Shown piece by piece: positions 28,852-57,552 of a stretch of 64,000 bases of DNA. Under the pieces are notes generated by a model, which had not been told where the DNA came from, ran no database searches, and worked only from the letters and a program-made list of their open reading frames with translations. The position numbers and the translations under genes are program-made. Source of the DNA: Alistipes sp. (lineage in GTDB: Bacteria; Bacteroidota; Bacteroidia; Bacteroidales; Rikenellaceae); the NCBI GenBank assembly GCA_017937125.1, contig JAGBEH010000001.1, positions 496,001 to 560,000 on the forward strand. The letters run 5' to 3'. Each line of letters starts with the position of its first letter. Within the stretch, counting starts at the first letter, position 1.

Positions 28852-31764
28852 TTAGTAGCCGAATATCTCTTTCTGGCTCAGCATCGTGATTTTGCCGATA
28901 CCGTTCAGATACTTCATATCGAGGTCTTTCTCGTCGCCGAGTATGCAGAACGTATATTTGCGATCCTTGATGTGCTCCTGCTGGAAAGCCACTACATCTT
29001 CGAGCGTTAGATTTTGGATCTTTTCGTATATAGCCTTGTTGCGGTCTACGTTTACGCCCATATCCTGATTGTCGATATACTGCCACAGAACGTTTTCCTT
29101 GATCGTGCGATCCGTCTCCAAAACCGTCAGTGCCGACTGCTTGGCCAGATCGAATGCCGCCTGCGACTGCGGCATATCGTTTATGATCTCCTCGAATGCC
29201 TCTATCGCCTGCTTCATCTTGTCGTTCTGCGTCGCGATGAATGCGTAGTAGCTGTATCCGTCTTCGGGACGTATCGATTCTCCGTATGTCGCCCACGACG
29301 AGTAGGCCAGACCGCGGGCTTCGCGCATCTCCTGGAATACTATGGCGTTCATTCCGCCGCCGAAATAGTCGTTGTACATATTGACTATCGCGTCGTTATC
29401 GGTCGAGAATACCTCGTCGCCGCGCTTCGAATACTGAATGTAATATATCTGCTTCGCGTCGTAGTGGGCAAGCAGAACATTGTTCTCGTCGGTCGCGAGC
29501 GTCGGGTAGTACACCTTGTCGGCGGCAGGGTCGATCATATTGTCGCTTACGTGGTGCGTTTTGTCGAGCTCCGCTATAAGGGCACGCTCCGAGAGAGGAC
29601 CGTAGTACATTACGCGGTGCTTCATATCGGGCAGCGCCTTGATGCAGGCTATGAGTTCGTCGTTCGTGAGGGCCTCCACCTGCTCGTTCGTCAGCGTGCT
29701 CGCCTTTATGGCATCGGCTCCGTAACGAGCATAGCGGAACAGGGCGTTGAAATTGGCTCCCTGATTGAGTTTCGCATCCGCCCGCGATTTGAGAATATCC
29801 TTCTTCATTTCGGCGAGTTTCTCCTCGTCGCCCTGGACATTGGACATATACTCTTCGGCCAAAGCCATTGCGCGCTGCATATTTTCGCCCAGACCGAATA
29901 TCATCACGTATGCGCGGGTCGATGTTACTACGATGCGGAAATCGCAGGCAAGAGCATAGAACTCGCTCTGTATCTCTTCGAGCGATTTGGTGTCGGTTCC
30001 CAGCAGCTGGAAGTATTTCGACATAGCGATGCCCGCTTTCGGGTTGTCGTAACTGCCGAAATCGTAGAGATACATCATCGTAAAGAGGTCGTTGGTCTCG
30101 TTGCGCTTGTAGAGCACTTCGATGTCGTTCTTCATCTTGCCGACCGACATATCCTTGTCGAAGTCGATGAATATCGGCTCGATAGGCTTTACCTGCGTGT
30201 TCTGTATTTCGGCCAGGAAGTTGCTCTTCGCATCGCGGTTCGTCGCAATCGGAGTGATGTGCGGCTTGTCGATCTTTTTCTGGTTCTTGTCTTCGCCCTG
30301 ACGCTTGTAGAGTATCACGTAGTTATCGTCGCGCAGATTCTCTTTCGCCCACTCGACTATCTGTTCTTTGGTGATTTTGCTCATTTCATCGAGCGTGTGG
30401 ACTACATCCGCCCAATCCGTACCGTTGATGAACGAATTGACATATTGGTATGCACGGCCGTTGTTGCTGTCGAGCTCCTCCATCGTGTAGCGCTTGTAGT
30501 TGGCTATGGTGGACGCGAGCAGCGTCTCGTCGAACTCGCCGTTGCGCAGTTTGGCCGCCTCGCCGAGAATGAGGTCGCGAACCTCCTCGAGCGTCTGGTT
30601 CTGCTTGGGATAACCTCCGACCAGAATAGCTCCCAGATCGGGATTTATCATAGCCTCGGCGAAACCGTTGAGTATCTTCTGCGACTGTATGAGGTCTACG
30701 TCCATAAGACCGCATTTGTTATTCGACAGAATGGATGCGATGAGCGTGCAGATGTCGGCATCCTCGCTTTTGGCACCTCCCGTACGCCAGCCCATATAGA
30801 TGAAATCGGCTTCGTTGCCGTAAACCTCTTTGGATTTCGGCTCCGTAAGCGGCTCGGCAGGCTCGTACGTGAACTCGGGCAGGTTTTCGTTGGGCTTGAG
30901 CTCTCCGAAATACTTGTCGATTATGGCAATGGCCTCATCAGGGTCGAAATCGCCCGACATACATATGGCTATGTTGTTGGGCACATAGTATGTCTTGTAA
31001 TAGTTCTTGATGTTGGTGATCGACGGGTTTTTCAGATGTTCCTGCGTACCGAGCACGGTATGCTGGCCGTACGGGTGGTTCGGGAAGAGCATCTCCATAA
31101 TGCCGTAGTAAGCCTTGTTCCCGTCGCGCGTGAGCGACATATTGTACTCTTCGTACACGGTCTCCAACTCGGTGTGGAACCCGCGAATCACGCTGTGCGC
31201 GAAACGGTCGGCCTGAATCTTGGCCCAGTTCTCGATCTGGTTGGACGGAATATCCTCGGTGTAGACCGTCTCGTCGAACGATGTCCAGGCATTGGTCCCC
31301 GTAGCGCCTATGGCCGACATAAGTTTGTCGTATTCGTTCGGAATGGCCAGTTTGGAGGCTTCGTTCGATACGCTGTCGATTACGGCATAGATTTTAGTAC
31401 GCTCTGCGGGGTCGGCAGTGTTGCGGTATACTTCGAACAGCCTTTCGATTTCGTCGAGCATCGGCTTCTCGGCCGCATAATCCTGTGTTCCGAAGCTCTC
31501 CGAACCCTTGAACATCAGGTGTTCGAAATAGTGTGCCAGACCCGTAGTCTCCGCGGGGTCGTTCTTTGCGCCGACCTTGACCGCGATGTAGGTCTGGATG
31601 CGCGGTGTTTCCTTGTTTACGGTCATATAGACCTTCAATCCGTTGTCGAGAGTGTAGATACGTGTTTTGAGCGGGTCGTCCGCCACCTTTTCGTACCTGT
31701 ACTTCGAACACGATACAGCGCCTAATGCTATGATTACCGCTGTCAGAAGAAAAAGCCTCTTCAT
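28852..31764 (-). CDS. M16 (insulinase) family zinc peptidase, lipoprotein
   Basis: 970 residues. Lipoprotein signal with lipobox AVSC (Cys19), inverted zinc motif HYFEH (78-82) with the distal Glu expected in the ELETVYEEYN region, then an inactive second half (including SYYAFIATQ and the DYFGGGMNAIVFQEMREARGLAY region), giving the usual four-domain clamp. Such two-half M16 lipoproteins of Bacteroidota are thought to degrade peptides in the periplasm or at the surface. Monocistronic. Its promoter contains a nine-G run between the -33 and -7 boxes (see findings), unlike any other promoter here. Confidence 0.93.
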   Translation of the reverse strand: MKRLFLLTAVIIALGAVSCSKYRYEKVADDPLKTRIYTLDNGLKVYMTVNKETPRIQTYIAVKVGAKNDPAETTGLAHYFEHLMFKGSESFGTQDYAAEKPMLDEIERLFEVYRNTADPAERTKIYAVIDSVSNEASKLAIPNEYDKLMSAIGATGTNAWTSFDETVYTEDIPSNQIENWAKIQADRFAHSVIRGFHTELETVYEEYNMSLTRDGNKAYYGIMEMLFPNHPYGQHTVLGTQEHLKNPSITNIKNYYKTYYVPNNIAICMSGDFDPDEAIAIIDKYFGELKPNENLPEFTYEPAEPLTEPKSKEVYGNEADFIYMGWRTGGAKSEDADICTLIASILSNNKCGLMDVDLIQSQKILNGFAEAMINPDLGAILVGGYPKQNQTLEEVRDLILGEAAKLRNGEFDETLLASTIANYKRYTMEELDSNNGRAYQYVNSFINGTDWADVVHTLDEMSKITKEQIVEWAKENLRDDNYVILYKRQGEDKNQKKIDKPHITPIATNRDAKSNFLAEIQNTQVKPIEPIFIDFDKDMSVGKMKNDIEVLYKRNETNDLFTMMYLYDFGSYDNPKAGIAMSKYFQLLGTDTKSLEEIQSEFYALACDFRIVVTSTRAYVMIFGLGENMQRAMALAEEYMSNVQGDEEKLAEMKKDILKSRADAKLNQGANFNALFRYARYGADAIKASTLTNEQVEALTNDELIACIKALPDMKHRVMYYGPLSERALIAELDKTHHVSDNMIDPAADKVYYPTLATDENNVLLAHYDAKQIYYIQYSKRGDEVFSTDNDAIVNMYNDYFGGGMNAIVFQEMREARGLAYSSWATYGESIRPEDGYSYYAFIATQNDKMKQAIEAFEEIINDMPQSQAAFDLAKQSALTVLETDRTIKENVLWQYIDNQDMGVNVDRNKAIYEKIQNLTLEDVVAFQQEHIKDRKYTFCILGDEKDLDMKYLNGIGKITMLSQKEIFGY

Positions 31765-31793
31765 AAATTTATGATTAAAAATGTAATTCGTTG

Positions 31794-31824
31794 CAAATAT
31801 AACGATTTACCCCCCCCCGCCAAA
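31794..31824 (-). promoter_or_regulatory. M16 promoter with a G9 tract in the -33/-7 spacer
   Basis: On the reverse strand TTTG (31821-31824), a 19-nt spacer, then TATATTTG (31794-31801). The spacer contains nine consecutive G (31810-31818 on this strand are C). The 19-nt spacing equals that of the wza, secA and polysaccharide operon promoters, so the present length should be the active state. Gain or loss of a G would change the spacing. Confidence 0.8.
31810..31818. repeat. C9/G9 homopolymer in the M16 promoter spacer
   Basis: Nine C on the given strand. Directly visible; see the promoter entry for its setting. Confidence 0.97.
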
Positions 31825-31884
31825 TTTCGAAACGAAAAAGTGGCGAAAATATTGCAATAAGTTGCGAATTCGTCTTTTCGGGAA

Positions 31885-32394
31885 TCAGAATAGAGATGAT
31901 ACCCACTCGCTGAACGGGGTGTATATGTCTTTGCAGACATATATGAACATCGCAGTCGCGGCAGTCAGTTTTATCCCCGTGCCTACGATGAACGAGAGGA
32001 ACGAACCGAAGCCTGAACGCAGGGCGCGGTTTATGTCGTCGCGGTCGTTGAGCAGCTCCCCGACGAAAGCCCCGACGAAAGGTCCCGCCAGCAATCCTAC
32101 GGGTGCGAAGAACATCCCGACAATCATTCCGATCGTTGCTCCTACGGTGGCGGCTCTGCTCCCGCCGAACACTTTTGTCATATATGCGGGGAGAAAATAG
32201 TCTACGGCCGATACGACGATGACGATGGCGAGCCATATCCACAGGAATGTTGGCGACAACTGCGAATTTCCGCTGAAGTAGGCGCACATCAGGCCCGCAT
32301 AACTCAATACGACACCGGGTATGATCGGAATTATGCAGCCGATGATGCCGATAACGGTAAACAGCAGGGCGAGGACGGACAGAAGAATGTCCAT
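31885..32394 (-). CDS. DUF456 family membrane protein
   Basis: 169 residues, mostly hydrophobic, with two long N-terminal helices, PIIPGVVLSYAGL, a glycine-rich middle (VGATIGMIVGMFFAPVGLLA) with GPFVGAFVGEL, and a further helix. This matches DUF456, small integral membrane proteins of unknown function. Follows panD after 1 bp, so it is part of the pantothenate operon, although no functional link is known. Confidence 0.83.
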   Translation of the reverse strand: MDILLSVLALLFTVIGIIGCIIPIIPGVVLSYAGLMCAYFSGNSQLSPTFLWIWLAIVIVVSAVDYFLPAYMTKVFGGSRAATVGATIGMIVGMFFAPVGLLAGPFVGAFVGELLNDRDDINRALRSGFGSFLSFIVGTGIKLTAATAMFIYVCKDIYTPFSEWVSSLF

Positions 32395-41064: not shown

Positions 41065-42138
41065 TTACATATGGCGTAATGCGCTGACGGCCGAATTCAA
41101 TAACATCGGTATGAATCCGTCCCTGTAAACGAGTTTATGTTTCCAACTGTTGCCGAAGCGTCTGTTTATGCGTAACAGAATGTCCGATACGAACGTCTCT
41201 CCGCGCATATTACGATAGCGGGGGTGGAGAATGTCGTCTAAAATCCGTTTCTCGATCTTCTCGTCGCGCTTGCCGAGGAAATGCGGGAAATCGGCTTTCA
41301 AACCGAGTTTATCGACCGCAATGGCGTTTACGGCATCGACGAAAGGAGTCATTCCCTGCCGTTCGGATATTTTGCGTACCGTCGCCCAATCGACTTCGTC
41401 TCCGTCTCGGGAGACGAACAGCACCCAGTCTGCGAGATGGCGCAATCCGATGTTTACGGCGGCGAAGTGTACGGCCATATGCCGCAACAGATATACGGCA
41501 TTGAATGTCGGCGACGGTACATAGGCGGTTTTGCCGTCCAGCGTGATGGTACGCGTCTCGTTTTCTGCCGTTTTTTGCAGGAACGCCTCCAACTCGCGAT
41601 GTTGGCGCGCTTGGAGATCGATGAACGTGCTGTGGTTTTCTATCGAGACCCCGTACAACGTAAATGTCGAGTGGTGCGGATTGTTGCGGTATATCTCTAT
41701 ACCTGTCTTTCCGTTTATTATTTCGTCAGCCTCTTTCTGACGGCCGTACAGCCATATGTCTATATCCCCGCATTCACGGTGTTCGGGCTTGCGGTAACAG
41801 AAACTCAGTCCTATGCCTTTCAGCAGCATAACCTTTATGCCGTACGGTTCCAAAAGTTCTATCAGGTTTTTTGCCGCGAGTTTCTGGATACGATATGTCT
41901 GCTCGATGCGGTCGATGTTGTAGATCCACGACATCTGAATTCTTCGCGGCGGCAAGCATTCCTTGGGCAGGCGGCATACGGCATCGTATGTCAATGCCAG
42001 AATGCCCTGCCTGGAAGCGATATTGAACAGCTCTTTCCATTGTGCGGGGCTGATATCCGTAAATTGGTCGCGGCGTGCTTCCCCCCCCCACAAATAGAGC
42101 CGTAGCAGGTCGATAATAATATCGTCGGTACGATTCAT
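41065..42138 (-). CDS. Uncharacterised nucleotidyltransferase family protein (PF14907-like)
   Basis: 357 residues, last gene of the polysaccharide operon. A central GIKVMLLKGIGLSFCY and CGDIDIWLYG (GDIDxW, the metal-binding acidic pair of the nucleotidyltransferase fold) fit the uncharacterised nucleotidyltransferase family often found in exopolysaccharide loci. HLADWVLFVSRDGDEVDW is also typical. Substrate unknown. Start ATG 42138 shares one base with the DegT gene stop (TAATG). Codons 17-20 (Trp-Gly-Gly-Glu) are formed by a nine-G run, so a single-base slip would truncate the protein after about 20 residues of native sequence. Confidence 0.75.
   Translation of the reverse strand: MNRTDDIIIDLLRLYLWGGEARRDQFTDISPAQWKELFNIASRQGILALTYDAVCRLPKECLPPRRIQMSWIYNIDRIEQTYRIQKLAAKNLIELLEPYGIKVMLLKGIGLSFCYRKPEHRECGDIDIWLYGRQKEADEIINGKTGIEIYRNNPHHSTFTLYGVSIENHSTFIDLQARQHRELEAFLQKTAENETRTITLDGKTAYVPSPTFNAVYLLRHMAVHFAAVNIGLRHLADWVLFVSRDGDEVDWATVRKISERQGMTPFVDAVNAIAVDKLGLKADFPHFLGKRDEKIEKRILDDILHPRYRNMRGETFVSDILLRINRRFGNSWKHKLVYRDGFIPMLLNSAVSALRHM
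42081..42089. repeat. C9/G9 homopolymer near the 5' end of the nucleotidyltransferase gene
   Basis: Nine C on the given strand, nine G in the coding strand, covering codons 17-20 of the reverse gene. Confidence 0.95.
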
Positions 42139-43280
42139 TATCTTTTGCAGCAACGTTTGATCTCTTCCGCCACATCGCCGATCTGCCCGTCGGTCAGCAG
42201 CGAGCCCGAAGGCAGGCATAGTCCGACGTTGAATATGCGCTCCGAGGTCCCGTCTCCGTAGAAGGGGTATTTCTCGAATATCGGTTGCATATGCATCGGG
42301 CGCCACAGCAGCCGCGATTCTATGTTTTCGGATTCGAGGTGCAAGCGTATTTCGTCGGCTGTCGTCCCCGTCTTTTCGGGGTCTACGGTTATGCACGTCA
42401 GCCAGAAATTCGAATCGAAATCTTTCGACGGGTTCTGCTTTACCTCTATGCCGTCGGTATCGGCGAGCAGCGAGGTGTAGAGTGCGTGTATCTCGCGGCG
42501 ACGGGCGATATGTGCATCCAATACCTCCATTTGGCCGCGTCCGATGCCTGCGCAGATGTTGCTCATACGATAGTTGTAGCCGATGTGCTCGTGGTAGTAA
42601 TAGGGGCGGTTTTCGCGTGCCTGCGTAGCGAAGAACTTGATGCGCTGCGCCTCTTCGGCCGTCCCGCAGACCAGTGCGCCGCCGCCCGACGTGGTGATCA
42701 TCTTGTTGCCGTTGAAACTCAAAGCTCCGTACTTGCCGAAGGTCCCGCACTTGCGCCCTTTGTATTCCGAACCTATGGCTTCGGCGGCATCTTCTATTAC
42801 GGTGATGCCGTATTTGCCGGCTATGGCCAGTATCTCGTCGAGCTTCGACGGCATTCCGTACAAATGTACCGGAACTATCGCTTTGGGGTATTTGCCCGTC
42901 TCGGCCTTGCGGTCGAGGATGGCTTTCTCTAAAAGTTCGGGCGACATATTCCAGGTGCTCTCCTCACTGTCTACGAATACGGGTGTCGCCCCCTGATAGA
43001 GTATCGGGTTGGCCGATGCTGAGAAGGTGAACGACTGGCATATCACCTCGTCTCCCGCTTCGACGCCTGCCATAACCATTCCTAAGTGTATGGCCGCCGT
43101 ACCTGCCGACAGCGCTACAACGTGCCGATTTTCACCGACGAATGCTTCAAGGGCTTTCTCGAACGCATCTACGTTCGGTCCGAGCGGCACCACCCAGTTG
43201 GTATCGAACGCCTCTTTGATAAATTTCTGTTCCTGCCCGCCCATATGCGCGAGCGACAGGAAAATTCTGTCTCTGTTCAT
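42138..43280 (-). CDS. DegT/DnrJ/EryC1/StrS aminotransferase, PglE-like
   Basis: 380-residue PLP-dependent sugar aminotransferase. ALSAGTAAIHLG (phosphate contact), the QSFTFSASANPI region, VIEDAAEAIGSEYKG and the PLP lysine in SFNGNKMITTSGGG are clear. In PglE the enzyme converts the 4-keto sugar from PglF into UDP-4-amino-4,6-dideoxy-GlcNAc. Its neighbours PglD-like and PglC-like and the PglF-like gene of the same operon support that role, though other 4-keto sugars are possible. Confidence 0.88.
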   Translation of the reverse strand: MNRDRIFLSLAHMGGQEQKFIKEAFDTNWVVPLGPNVDAFEKALEAFVGENRHVVALSAGTAAIHLGMVMAGVEAGDEVICQSFTFSASANPILYQGATPVFVDSEESTWNMSPELLEKAILDRKAETGKYPKAIVPVHLYGMPSKLDEILAIAGKYGITVIEDAAEAIGSEYKGRKCGTFGKYGALSFNGNKMITTSGGGALVCGTAEEAQRIKFFATQARENRPYYYHEHIGYNYRMSNICAGIGRGQMEVLDAHIARRREIHALYTSLLADTDGIEVKQNPSKDFDSNFWLTCITVDPEKTGTTADEIRLHLESENIESRLLWRPMHMQPIFEKYPFYGDGTSERIFNVGLCLPSGSLLTDGQIGDVAEEIKRCCKR

Positions 43281-55264: not shown

Positions 55265-57277
55265 TTATGCCGTAACCTGTTCCGTTGCGGTAATTGTCTG
55301 CGTATCTTCGGTTTCTTCCGAATACTCCTTGTCATACTCCTCGAACCGCGAATTCTGTGATTTGAATTCGGGTACGGTGGATTTCATCAACCGTACCGTC
55401 GAGGGAACGTCCACGGCGAGCGCGAACGCTTCGAGCTGCTCGACAGCCTGACGTGCATTTTCGTATTCGTATTCGCGAACTTTGGCTATGCGTATTTTTT
55501 CGTGGGGAGTGGGCAGGGTGTTCTCCGAGTTGCTGAGCACCTCCTCGTACAGCTTCTCACCGGGCCGCAAACCGGTGTATTCGATATGGATCTCCTTATC
55601 GACCTCGAAGCCGGCCAGCTCTATCATACGTTTGGCCAGATCTGCGATCTTTACGGACTCGCCCATATCGAAGACGAAAATCTCGTTGCCGCGGCTCATA
55701 GTCGCAGCCTCCATTACCAGACGGCAAGCCTCCGGTATGGTCATAAAAAATCGGGTGATGTCGGGGTGGGTTACAGTGACGGGACCTCCGCGCATGATCT
55801 GCTCGCGGAAGCGCGGGATTACCGACCCGTTAGAGCCTAAAACATTGCCGAATCGCGTGGTTATGAATTTGGTGGTACCCGCGACCCCCCCCCTTGAGAT
55901 CGCCTGTCCAAGGCTCTGTACGTATATCTCAGCCAGGCGTTTGGAGGCTCCCATAACGTTCGTCGGATTGACTGCTTTGTCGGTGGAGATCATTACCATC
56001 TTCTCCGCATTGTAGCGAATGCACATATCGGCGATATTGCGTGTGCCGGCTACGTTTACGCAAATCGCCTCGCAGGGATTCTCCTCCATCAGAGGCACGT
56101 GTTTGTATGCCGCGGCGTGGAATACGACCTGCGGCTTGTATGTCCTGAATGCGAAATCGAGACGTCTCGCCGAACGGACGTCTCCGATGACGGGGATGAA
56201 TTTCAGGTTGGGGTAGCGTTCTTCGAGTTCGATGCGGATGTTGTGCATCGGCGTCTCGGCATTGTCGAACAGAATGAGTTCCCGAATGTCGAAATTGCTC
56301 AACTGGCGGCACAACTCCGAGCCTATGGAACCTGCGGCACCCGTAACCATTATGGTTTTGCCCTTGAATCCTGCTATTATCTCGTCCATCGAGATTTTGA
56401 TTTCGGGGCGTCCCAACAGGTCTTCGATCTTTATCTCGCGGACATTCTGCTGCATCAGCTTCCCGTCTATGACCTCGTCGATGGCGGGGGCTATGAGGAC
56501 GTTTATGCCGAGCGTCCCGCACGCTTTTATCAAACGGTCTTTTTCTTCGCGTGCCTCGTCGTAACTGTGGAACAGCACGGCGTCGAAATGTTGTATGGAG
56601 TATATTTTCTTCAAATCGTTACCCGACGTGAACCAGAATATGGGAAGGTCGGAGATGCGGTACGACCGCAGCTTGCGGCCGTAGTTGATGAATCCCGTGA
56701 TTATGTAGTGCGGCGATTTGTGCAGGCGGGTTATCAATGCGACCTGCTTGTCCCCCGTGCCGTATATCAGGACGCGTTTGCGGCGGTGTTTGCTGGTCGC
56801 GGACTGCTGGCTCAGGAGCAGATCGTATGTTACGATCATCATAACGCGCGTGGAGATCAGCAGGCAGATCGACAGCAACATATCCAATATTATGAGAATC
56901 GCTATATTGCATCCTTCAAAAACGGTCGGCGCGATGAAATATGCAGCCAGCAGCATCGCTTCCTTGAGGAATACGGCTTCGCTCAGCTTCAGTATGTCGC
57001 GCATCGTGGAGTGGCGGATGACCGAGCGGTACGTCTTGAAAACGCCGTAAGCTATTCCGCTGAATACCAACGACAGCGCATCTATCTCCAACAACCGTAC
57101 GGCCGTAATCGAAAATTCGGGAATCAGATAGCTCGACATCGCCAGTGCGATCGTAGTCGCAATAGTCGCTATCATCATATCCACTATCAGGATAATCCAG
57201 AGCTTGGTATATCTTTCGAGATGTGCTTTTCGTAGCAAAAAGTCGCTGATACTTTGAAGTGGTCTGTTCTGATTCAT
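55265..57277 (-). CDS. Membrane-bound nucleotide-sugar 4,6-dehydratase, PglF/WbpM-like
   Basis: 670 residues: four N-terminal hydrophobic helices, a first Rossmann domain (RVLIYGTGDKQ) and a second with TGAAGSIGSELC (NAD), FHAAAYKHVPLME and STDKAVNPTNVMGASKRLAE, where Met takes the place of the usual Tyr of YxxxK as in the PglF/WbpM class. Predicted to convert UDP-GlcNAc to its 4-keto-6-deoxy form, the first step towards bacillosamine. Start at 57277 fits the family; 57295 is possible. Codons 462-465 (Arg-Gly-Gly-Val) contain a nine-G run in a loop. First gene of the operon. Confidence 0.9.
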   Translation of the reverse strand: MNQNRPLQSISDFLLRKAHLERYTKLWIILIVDMMIATIATTIALAMSSYLIPEFSITAVRLLEIDALSLVFSGIAYGVFKTYRSVIRHSTMRDILKLSEAVFLKEAMLLAAYFIAPTVFEGCNIAILIILDMLLSICLLISTRVMMIVTYDLLLSQQSATSKHRRKRVLIYGTGDKQVALITRLHKSPHYIITGFINYGRKLRSYRISDLPIFWFTSGNDLKKIYSIQHFDAVLFHSYDEAREEKDRLIKACGTLGINVLIAPAIDEVIDGKLMQQNVREIKIEDLLGRPEIKISMDEIIAGFKGKTIMVTGAAGSIGSELCRQLSNFDIRELILFDNAETPMHNIRIELEERYPNLKFIPVIGDVRSARRLDFAFRTYKPQVVFHAAAYKHVPLMEENPCEAICVNVAGTRNIADMCIRYNAEKMVMISTDKAVNPTNVMGASKRLAEIYVQSLGQAISRGGVAGTTKFITTRFGNVLGSNGSVIPRFREQIMRGGPVTVTHPDITRFFMTIPEACRLVMEAATMSRGNEIFVFDMGESVKIADLAKRMIELAGFEVDKEIHIEYTGLRPGEKLYEEVLSNSENTLPTPHEKIRIAKVREYEYENARQAVEQLEAFALAVDVPSTVRLMKSTVPEFKSQNSRFEEYDKEYSEETEDTQTITATEQVTA
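55885..55893. repeat. C9/G9 homopolymer inside the PglF-like gene
   Basis: Nine C on the given strand; in the coding strand AGG GGG GGG GTC. A slip of one base would shift the frame about two thirds into the gene, before the rest of the dehydratase domain. Confidence 0.96.
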
Positions 57278-57319
57278 AATCGATATTCGGGGCATTTTAG
57301 TAATTGCAAAATCATAGGG

Positions 57320-57344
57320 ACGTCTTATGGTATGCACAAGACGT
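57320..57344 (-). promoter_or_regulatory. Hairpin in the leader of the polysaccharide operon
   Basis: Seven-base inverted repeat ACGTCTT/AAGACGT with an 11-base loop, 43 nt before the first start codon. No T tract follows directly. A short frame ends at its 5' foot (see next entry). Confidence 0.4.
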
Positions 57345-57542: not shown

Positions 57543-57552
57543 CCCCCCCCCC
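57543..57552. repeat. C10/G10 homopolymer upstream of the polysaccharide operon promoter
   Basis: Ten C on the given strand, 52 bp upstream of the -33 box. It is not in a recognised spacer or reading frame. Confidence 0.93.

Follow-up and report, generated by a model that had tools for sequence, protein, structure and literature searches.

A nine-G run in the promoter spacer of an Alistipes M16 peptidase gene is a candidate slippage site within a genus-wide set of G-tract promoters

Does the run of nine G residues between the core promoter boxes of an Alistipes M16 peptidase gene allow the expression of that gene to be varied by slippage? Phase variation in gut Bacteroidales is known chiefly as DNA inversion, and the initial annotation of this locus had proposed the run as a candidate slippage-variable promoter that would be unusual for the order. 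The gene lies in the window, a term used here for the whole 64,000-nt stretch of DNA that was analyzed (contig JAGBEH010000001.1). Its product contains Peptidase_M16 and Peptidase_M16_C domains, a HYFEH motif that we take to be the HxxEH metallopeptidase motif, and a lipoprotein-like N terminus that ends in AVSC. By its domains and HxxEH motif, the 970-residue protein is a predicted M16 metallopeptidase. The two promoter boxes and the nine-G spacer between them were read on the minus strand, and all coordinates first assigned to them were reproduced (Table 1); the ATG start codon at 31764 lies 29 nt past the -7 box. Both boxes fit the Bacteroides consensus given in PMC7366714. With these two boxes and a spacing that is common in its own genome, the site is a predicted promoter of the sigma-ABfr type.

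Table 1. Positions of the M16 promoter elements, neighboring genes, and other long G runs of the window
Feature	Position	Strand	Details
M16 metallopeptidase gene	28852..31764	minus	970 aa; PF00675 1.3e-10, PF05193 7e-31
-7 box TATATTTG	31801-31794	minus	Consensus TAnnTTTG
Nine-G homopolymer within M16 promoter spacer	31818-31810	minus	Proposed slippage site
19-nt spacer GCGGGGGGGGGTAAATCGT	31820-31802	minus	
-33 box TTTG	31824-31821	minus	Read from the sequence
DUF456 protein gene	31885..32394	minus	Upstream of M16
ORF with NTP_transf_5 domain	41068..42750	minus	Contains the tract at 42081-42089
Nine-G tract in coding sequence of NTP_transf_5 gene	42081..42089	minus	~50 nt past likely ATG 42138
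Polysaccharide biosynthesis ORF (Polysacc_synt_2)	55268..57337	minus	One tract inside, one upstream
Nine-G tract in polysaccharide biosynthesis coding sequence	55885..55893	minus	In frame as assembled
Ten-G tract	57543..57552	minus	~50 nt ahead of the -33 box (57490) that precedes the polysaccharide biosynthesis gene

Exact matches to TTTG and TAnnTTTG separated by 19 nt occur at four further sites in the window (54369 on the plus strand and 61539, 57490, and 15249 on the minus strand), in agreement with the earlier statement that other promoters of the window share the spacing of the M16 promoter. One window site has a 20-nt spacer (38548, plus strand), and a scan of the window for exact sites with an 18-nt or 21-nt spacer yielded none. 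The claim that no other promoter carries such a run held in part: the M16 promoter is the only one of these six sites with a long G run in its spacer, but the window contains three more long G runs. Among ordinary promoters in 298,658 scanned bases of the same genome, spacers of 18, 19, 20, and 21 nt were found at 4, 10, 13, and 2 sites, respectively, and in 80 relatives, 19 nt was found at 32 sites, 20 nt at 36, and 18 nt at 3; a few of the scanned stretches behind these counts overlap slightly.

Strand slippage in replication would add G residues to the M16 spacer or remove them, and this would alter the distance between TTTG and TAnnTTTG, the two boxes that the primary sigma factor of Bacteroidota recognizes. 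Nine G residues give the 19-nt spacing that is usual for this genome, and the assembled state of M16 is predicted to be ON. The promoter would be weakened if one G were lost (18 nt) or two were gained (21 nt) but not if a single G were gained (20 nt). We infer this ON/OFF rule from the sequence, together with slippage as its cause and reversible switching within the population. G-tract promoters and tracts in coding sequences would form a genus-wide set, placed mostly ahead of exported or surface-type proteins, and the nine-G run of M16 quite probably belongs to this set as a site at which slippage makes a promoter phase variable.

The M16 promoter was compared with those of the seven genomes that hold the nearest orthologues (at least 72% identity, two of them partial matches; one genome per species). 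Nine G residues are intact in G087 and G133, both with 18-nt spacers, while G025 has an interrupted tract (G5-A-G3) in a 19-nt spacer and G136 has a tract that is both shortened and interrupted (G2-A-G5). The M16 promoters of G162, G030, and G130 have no tract, and the upstream region of G130 is unrelated. With its own genome included, the tract thus has nine G residues in three genomes, is interrupted in one, is shortened and interrupted in one, and is absent from three; every species that keeps it intact (n = 3) has nine G residues. Among the more distant orthologues inspected, no intact spacer tract was found, and across 29 loci from other genomes and 7 stretches, only those of G087 and G133 were intact. 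Inspection by eye of the 80 named relatives revealed one interrupted spacer G tract (L033) and one C run upstream (L068). At this gene the tract is thus characteristic of a small clade, even though the device itself is found across the genus.

Two genes stand upstream of M16 on the same strand, one for the DUF456 protein and one for an aspartate decarboxylase. No terminator-like site was found on the minus strand between 31500 and 32500, and hence none between DUF456 and the M16 promoter, so that read-through into M16 is possible and could blunt the switch. The tract would then slip with little consequence for M16, an explanation that overlaps with the one preferred for the entire class of promoters. 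In several distant relatives, M16 follows the end of a DUF456-like gene (by eye) with no recognizable promoter, which is consistent with transcription from upstream. The present locus, however, has matching boxes, and the retention of the tract, intact in G087 and G133 and interrupted in G025, argues against a promoter of little consequence. We consider it unlikely that read-through makes the M16 switch idle. A reading of the M16 promoter as an inverton was dropped because the promoter has no flanking inverted repeats: a search of 31500 to 32300 for arms of at least 11 nt yielded one 12-nt pair, both arms of which lie inside the gene.

Long G runs are more frequent in the window than expected. 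Words of seven G residues were seen 13 times versus 3.6 expected, and none of 100 shuffles reached 13; runs of G or C with lengths of 5, 6, 7, 8, 9, and 10 nt number 25, 1, 0, 0, 3, and 1, respectively. In each of the three long runs other than that of M16, the G residues are on the minus strand. One is in the NTP_transf_5 gene, the ATG of which was assigned by our own reading of the sequence. The other two belong to one polysaccharide biosynthesis gene: nine G residues lie within its coding sequence, and ten lie upstream of its promoter. The nadA gene of Neisseria meningitidis has a tetranucleotide as its repeat unit. The ten-G tract resembles the nadA tract in its position, since the latter lies distally upstream of the promoter (PMC2791445).

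The genome from which the window derives (G000; 12 contigs totaling 2.16 Mb, 90% completeness) contains 2, 6, 47, 8, and 1 exact runs of 7, 8, 9, 10, and 11 G residues, respectively, and 56 tracts of at least nine. Runs of nine are far more numerous than runs of seven, the reverse of what a chance process would yield. The M16 tract is longer than chance would give and falls in a length class known to slip (PMC6321876). Matching promoter spacers hold 5 of the 56 tracts. Four of these spacers are 19 nt long (M16, C4:712591, C7:68141, and C12:8472, in the last of which ten G residues make up the 19 nt), and that of C9:27735 is 18 nt long.

Forty ORFs of this genome that lie at or adjoin tracts were scanned for domains, and an E value of 0.001 or better was taken as a family match. 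The families comprise five TonB-dependent receptors, one Mfa_like_1 fimbrillin-like protein, two DUF6562 proteins, two ECF-type sigma factors, two glycosyltransferases, two sulfatases, a BspA-type leucine-rich-repeat protein, two DUF3575/OmpA proteins, two M16 peptidases, and others, and they include the polysaccharide synthesis and nucleotidyltransferase genes of the window. Products that are not of the surface type are also present (pyruvate:ferredoxin oxidoreductase and a resolvase), and 11 of the 40 ORFs have no family at this threshold. One TonB-dependent receptor gene (L129) has two tracts, the promoter spacer C9:27735 and, in the region of the frame, C9:27621. The latter is a ten-G tract 45 nt past an ATG, in an ORF that as assembled encodes 26 aa ahead of the receptor frame; this closed frame is as would be expected of a frame switch in the OFF state. 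Three further loci (L149 at C4:492370, L117 at C6:144702, and L126 at C7:80298) have similar leader ORFs of 53 to 56 aa with a GFAQS or GFAAS motif. In all three, the G tract (ten G residues in L126) lies 27 to 32 nt past the A of the ATG and is in frame as assembled, and large lipoprotein-type genes stand downstream.

The excess of nine-G runs extends across the genus, which we take to be Alistipes from the match, by eye, between named Alistipes records and genomes of the set (for example, L031 with L158 and L033 with L161). Counts over 61 of its genomes gave 428 exact runs of 7 G residues, 552 of 8, and 1410 of 9, with nines exceeding sevens in 54 genomes, falling below them in 4, and equaling them in 3. 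In 148 genomes from elsewhere in the order, by comparison, there are 5678 sevens and 431 nines, and nines exceed sevens in a single genome. That genome, G187 (10 nines versus 4 sevens), possibly has an independent poly-G phasome. Loss of mismatch repair is unsupported as the source of the long G runs, since MutS1 scored over the cut-off in 57 of the 61 genus genomes, including that of the window; the other four have fragments (G009) or a weaker MutS-like match only (G035, G041, and G055). With MutS1 present, the slippage rate would depend on the length of the tract and not on a defect in repair. An excess that spans the whole genus could also be a neutral quirk, in which the genus grows and keeps nine-G runs that have a minor effect when they fall in a promoter. 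The occurrence of tracts in genes and in stretches that lack a matching promoter, with only the five mentioned above in a matching spacer, is in keeping with this idea, and the placement of the tracts bears on it directly.

Placement was assessed with the promoter pattern TTTG, 0 to 12 nt, G7, 0 to 12 nt, and TAnnTTTG, using the reversed pattern as the control. In 180 genomes of the genus (one per species), the pattern matched 208 times in 100 genomes, leaving 80 genomes without any match, and the reversed pattern matched twice. In 392 other genomes of the order, a hand count gave 24 matches to the pattern and 22 to its reverse. G-tract promoters as an order-wide feature were dropped, because this number of matches is at the control level. 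None of the four genomes within this sample that belong to the same family but lie outside the genus has a match; with few same-family genomes sampled, the boundary of the trait is resolved only as within the genus versus the rest of the order. Two or three matches per genome occur in three genomes outside the genus, with spacers of 10 to 12 nt (G491 and G560) or 18 nt (G258). Spacer lengths were determined for 149 matches from 75 genus genomes and were 18 nt in 62, 19 nt in 46, 21 nt in 16, 20 nt in 7, and of other lengths in 18. Spacers of 18 to 19 nt account for 108 of the 149 matches, and the tract consists of nine G residues in 108 of the 149.

The genes behind these promoters were surveyed for 136 matches (loci L194 to L323 and the genome of the window). 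An ATG ORF begins within 160 nt of 113 of them, at a median distance of 39 nt. The other 23 include 4 loci that are short of downstream sequence and C9:27735, whose gene is out of frame. Under a simple and crude hydrophobicity rule for calling signal peptides, 106 of the 113 downstream ORFs have a strongly hydrophobic N terminus, versus 14 of 44 large ORFs of the window; the downstream products thus mostly look exported. A neutral tendency to keep nine-G runs would not place them 208 times between TTTG and TAnnTTTG when the reversed pattern is matched twice, would not hold the total spacer at 18 to 19 nt, and would not gather tracts ahead of exported-type proteins. It is a quite improbable account of these promoters.

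Within the spacer, the tract adjoins the -33 box in 68 of the 149 matches (mode, nine G residues and 18 nt), stands against the -7 box in 76 (mode, nine G residues and 19 nt), and lies between these positions in 5. Among nine-G tracts near the -33 box in the fetched loci, 32 of 49 have a total spacer of 18 nt, versus 14.5 expected and a maximum of 27 in 10,000 permutations. The offsets on either side of these tracts compensate to hold 18 nt. Few ordinary promoters have this length (4 and 3 sites, whereas 19 nt and 20 nt each occur at 10 to 36), and the simple ON rule may therefore fail for tracts near the -33 box, where 18 nt could be a low state or could be tolerated in G-rich DNA. The tract promoters would stand at the short edge of the normal spacer range, where one G more or less should matter most.

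Homologous promoters differ in the length of their tracts. Among 85 homologous pairs, which are not independent of one another, tract length differs in 27, and spacer length differs as well in 19 of those; the equal spacers of the other 8 indicate substitution at the edge of the tract and not slippage. The promoters of L289 and L315 have nine and eleven G residues, respectively, at 93% flank identity and with the spacer otherwise unchanged. In G003, 267 of the 271 nt shared by two contig ends are identical, and the promoter region differs solely by 10 versus 8 G residues; the proteins behind the two copies diverge after the signal peptide. Tract length thus changes faster than the flanking sequence. 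These differences also bear on the view that the nine G residues are a fixed element, needed by a protein or for DNA shape, that sets the strength of the promoter. The nine G residues retained at M16 in three species and the 19-nt spacer that persists in the interrupted G025 promoter agree with such an element. A fixed element would nevertheless not be expected at two places in the spacer and in coding sequences as well, nor would its length differ between near-identical promoters, and we judge it very unlikely. Sequencing or assembly error is scarcely credible as the origin of the tracts, even though homopolymers are error-prone, G000 is probably metagenome assembled (judging from its 12 contigs and 90% completeness), and the G003 pair sits at contig ends, since nines exceed sevens in most genomes of the genus and in only one outside it, and since the tracts are found in coherent promoters and open frames.

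The initial proposal of a slippage-variable M16 promoter has thus gained comparative evidence from the nine-G excess, the genus-enriched G-tract spacers, the preference for 18 to 19 nt, the length differences between homologues, and the nine G residues kept at M16 in two further species. Slippage at this promoter would have precedents elsewhere. In porA, opc, and fetA of N. meningitidis, a homopolymer lies between the -35 and -10 boxes (PMC2791445), and the expression of nspA is set by an A tract in its promoter that differs by a single base, although no phase variation of nspA was found in that study (PMC6389960). The M16 homopolymer is likewise between two core promoter boxes, as the porA/opc-type class requires, ahead of a surface-type gene, and its length sets the spacing. 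Unlike the Neisseria promoters, those of Alistipes have TTTG and TAnnTTTG boxes 19 to 20 nt apart, and they recur at the 208 places counted above. By analogy, the M16 promoter may work as in the porA/opc/fetA and nspA cases and is a candidate member of that class.

As a genome-wide set, the tracts resemble the phasome of Campylobacter, in which nine-G and ten-G tracts make up 53% and 26%, respectively, and 77% of tracts are within ORFs (PMC6321876). Genomes of Alistipes similarly have G tracts by the dozen, both in and outside frames, and their lengths peak at nine, but Alistipes belongs to another phylum, has a distinct promoter-spacer class, and contains MutS1. In Bacteroides, a member of the same order, surface genes phase vary by means of invertible promoters, or invertons (PMC11868660). 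The M16 promoter likewise concerns a surface-type gene, whereas the change proposed for it is one of length and not of orientation. Among the matches listed from open-license PMC articles, as represented by titles and the starts of abstracts, none reported phase variation through homopolymers in Alistipes or elsewhere in the Bacteroidales, and the extract of PMC2831843 mentions neither "Bacteroid-" nor Alistipes. PMC11868660 cites a survey of long repeats by Mrazek et al. that may include Bacteroidota.

The genus fairly likely has a slippage-based contingency system of poly-G tracts, between a few and roughly a hundred in each genome, with nine-G spacers in primary-sigma promoters of exported proteins, through which each cell would draw its own combination of surface proteins. 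If this is true, a gut Bacteroidota genus would have a multilocus repeat phasome parallel to the DNA inversion switches of Bacteroides, and the expression of Alistipes surface proteins could not be read from gene content alone. Software that seeks inversions would overlook such switches. Two ECF-type sigma factor genes of the same genome (L143 at C4:177907 and L116 at C6:25879) have a nine-G tract in their first part, and slippage in these genes could switch regulons.
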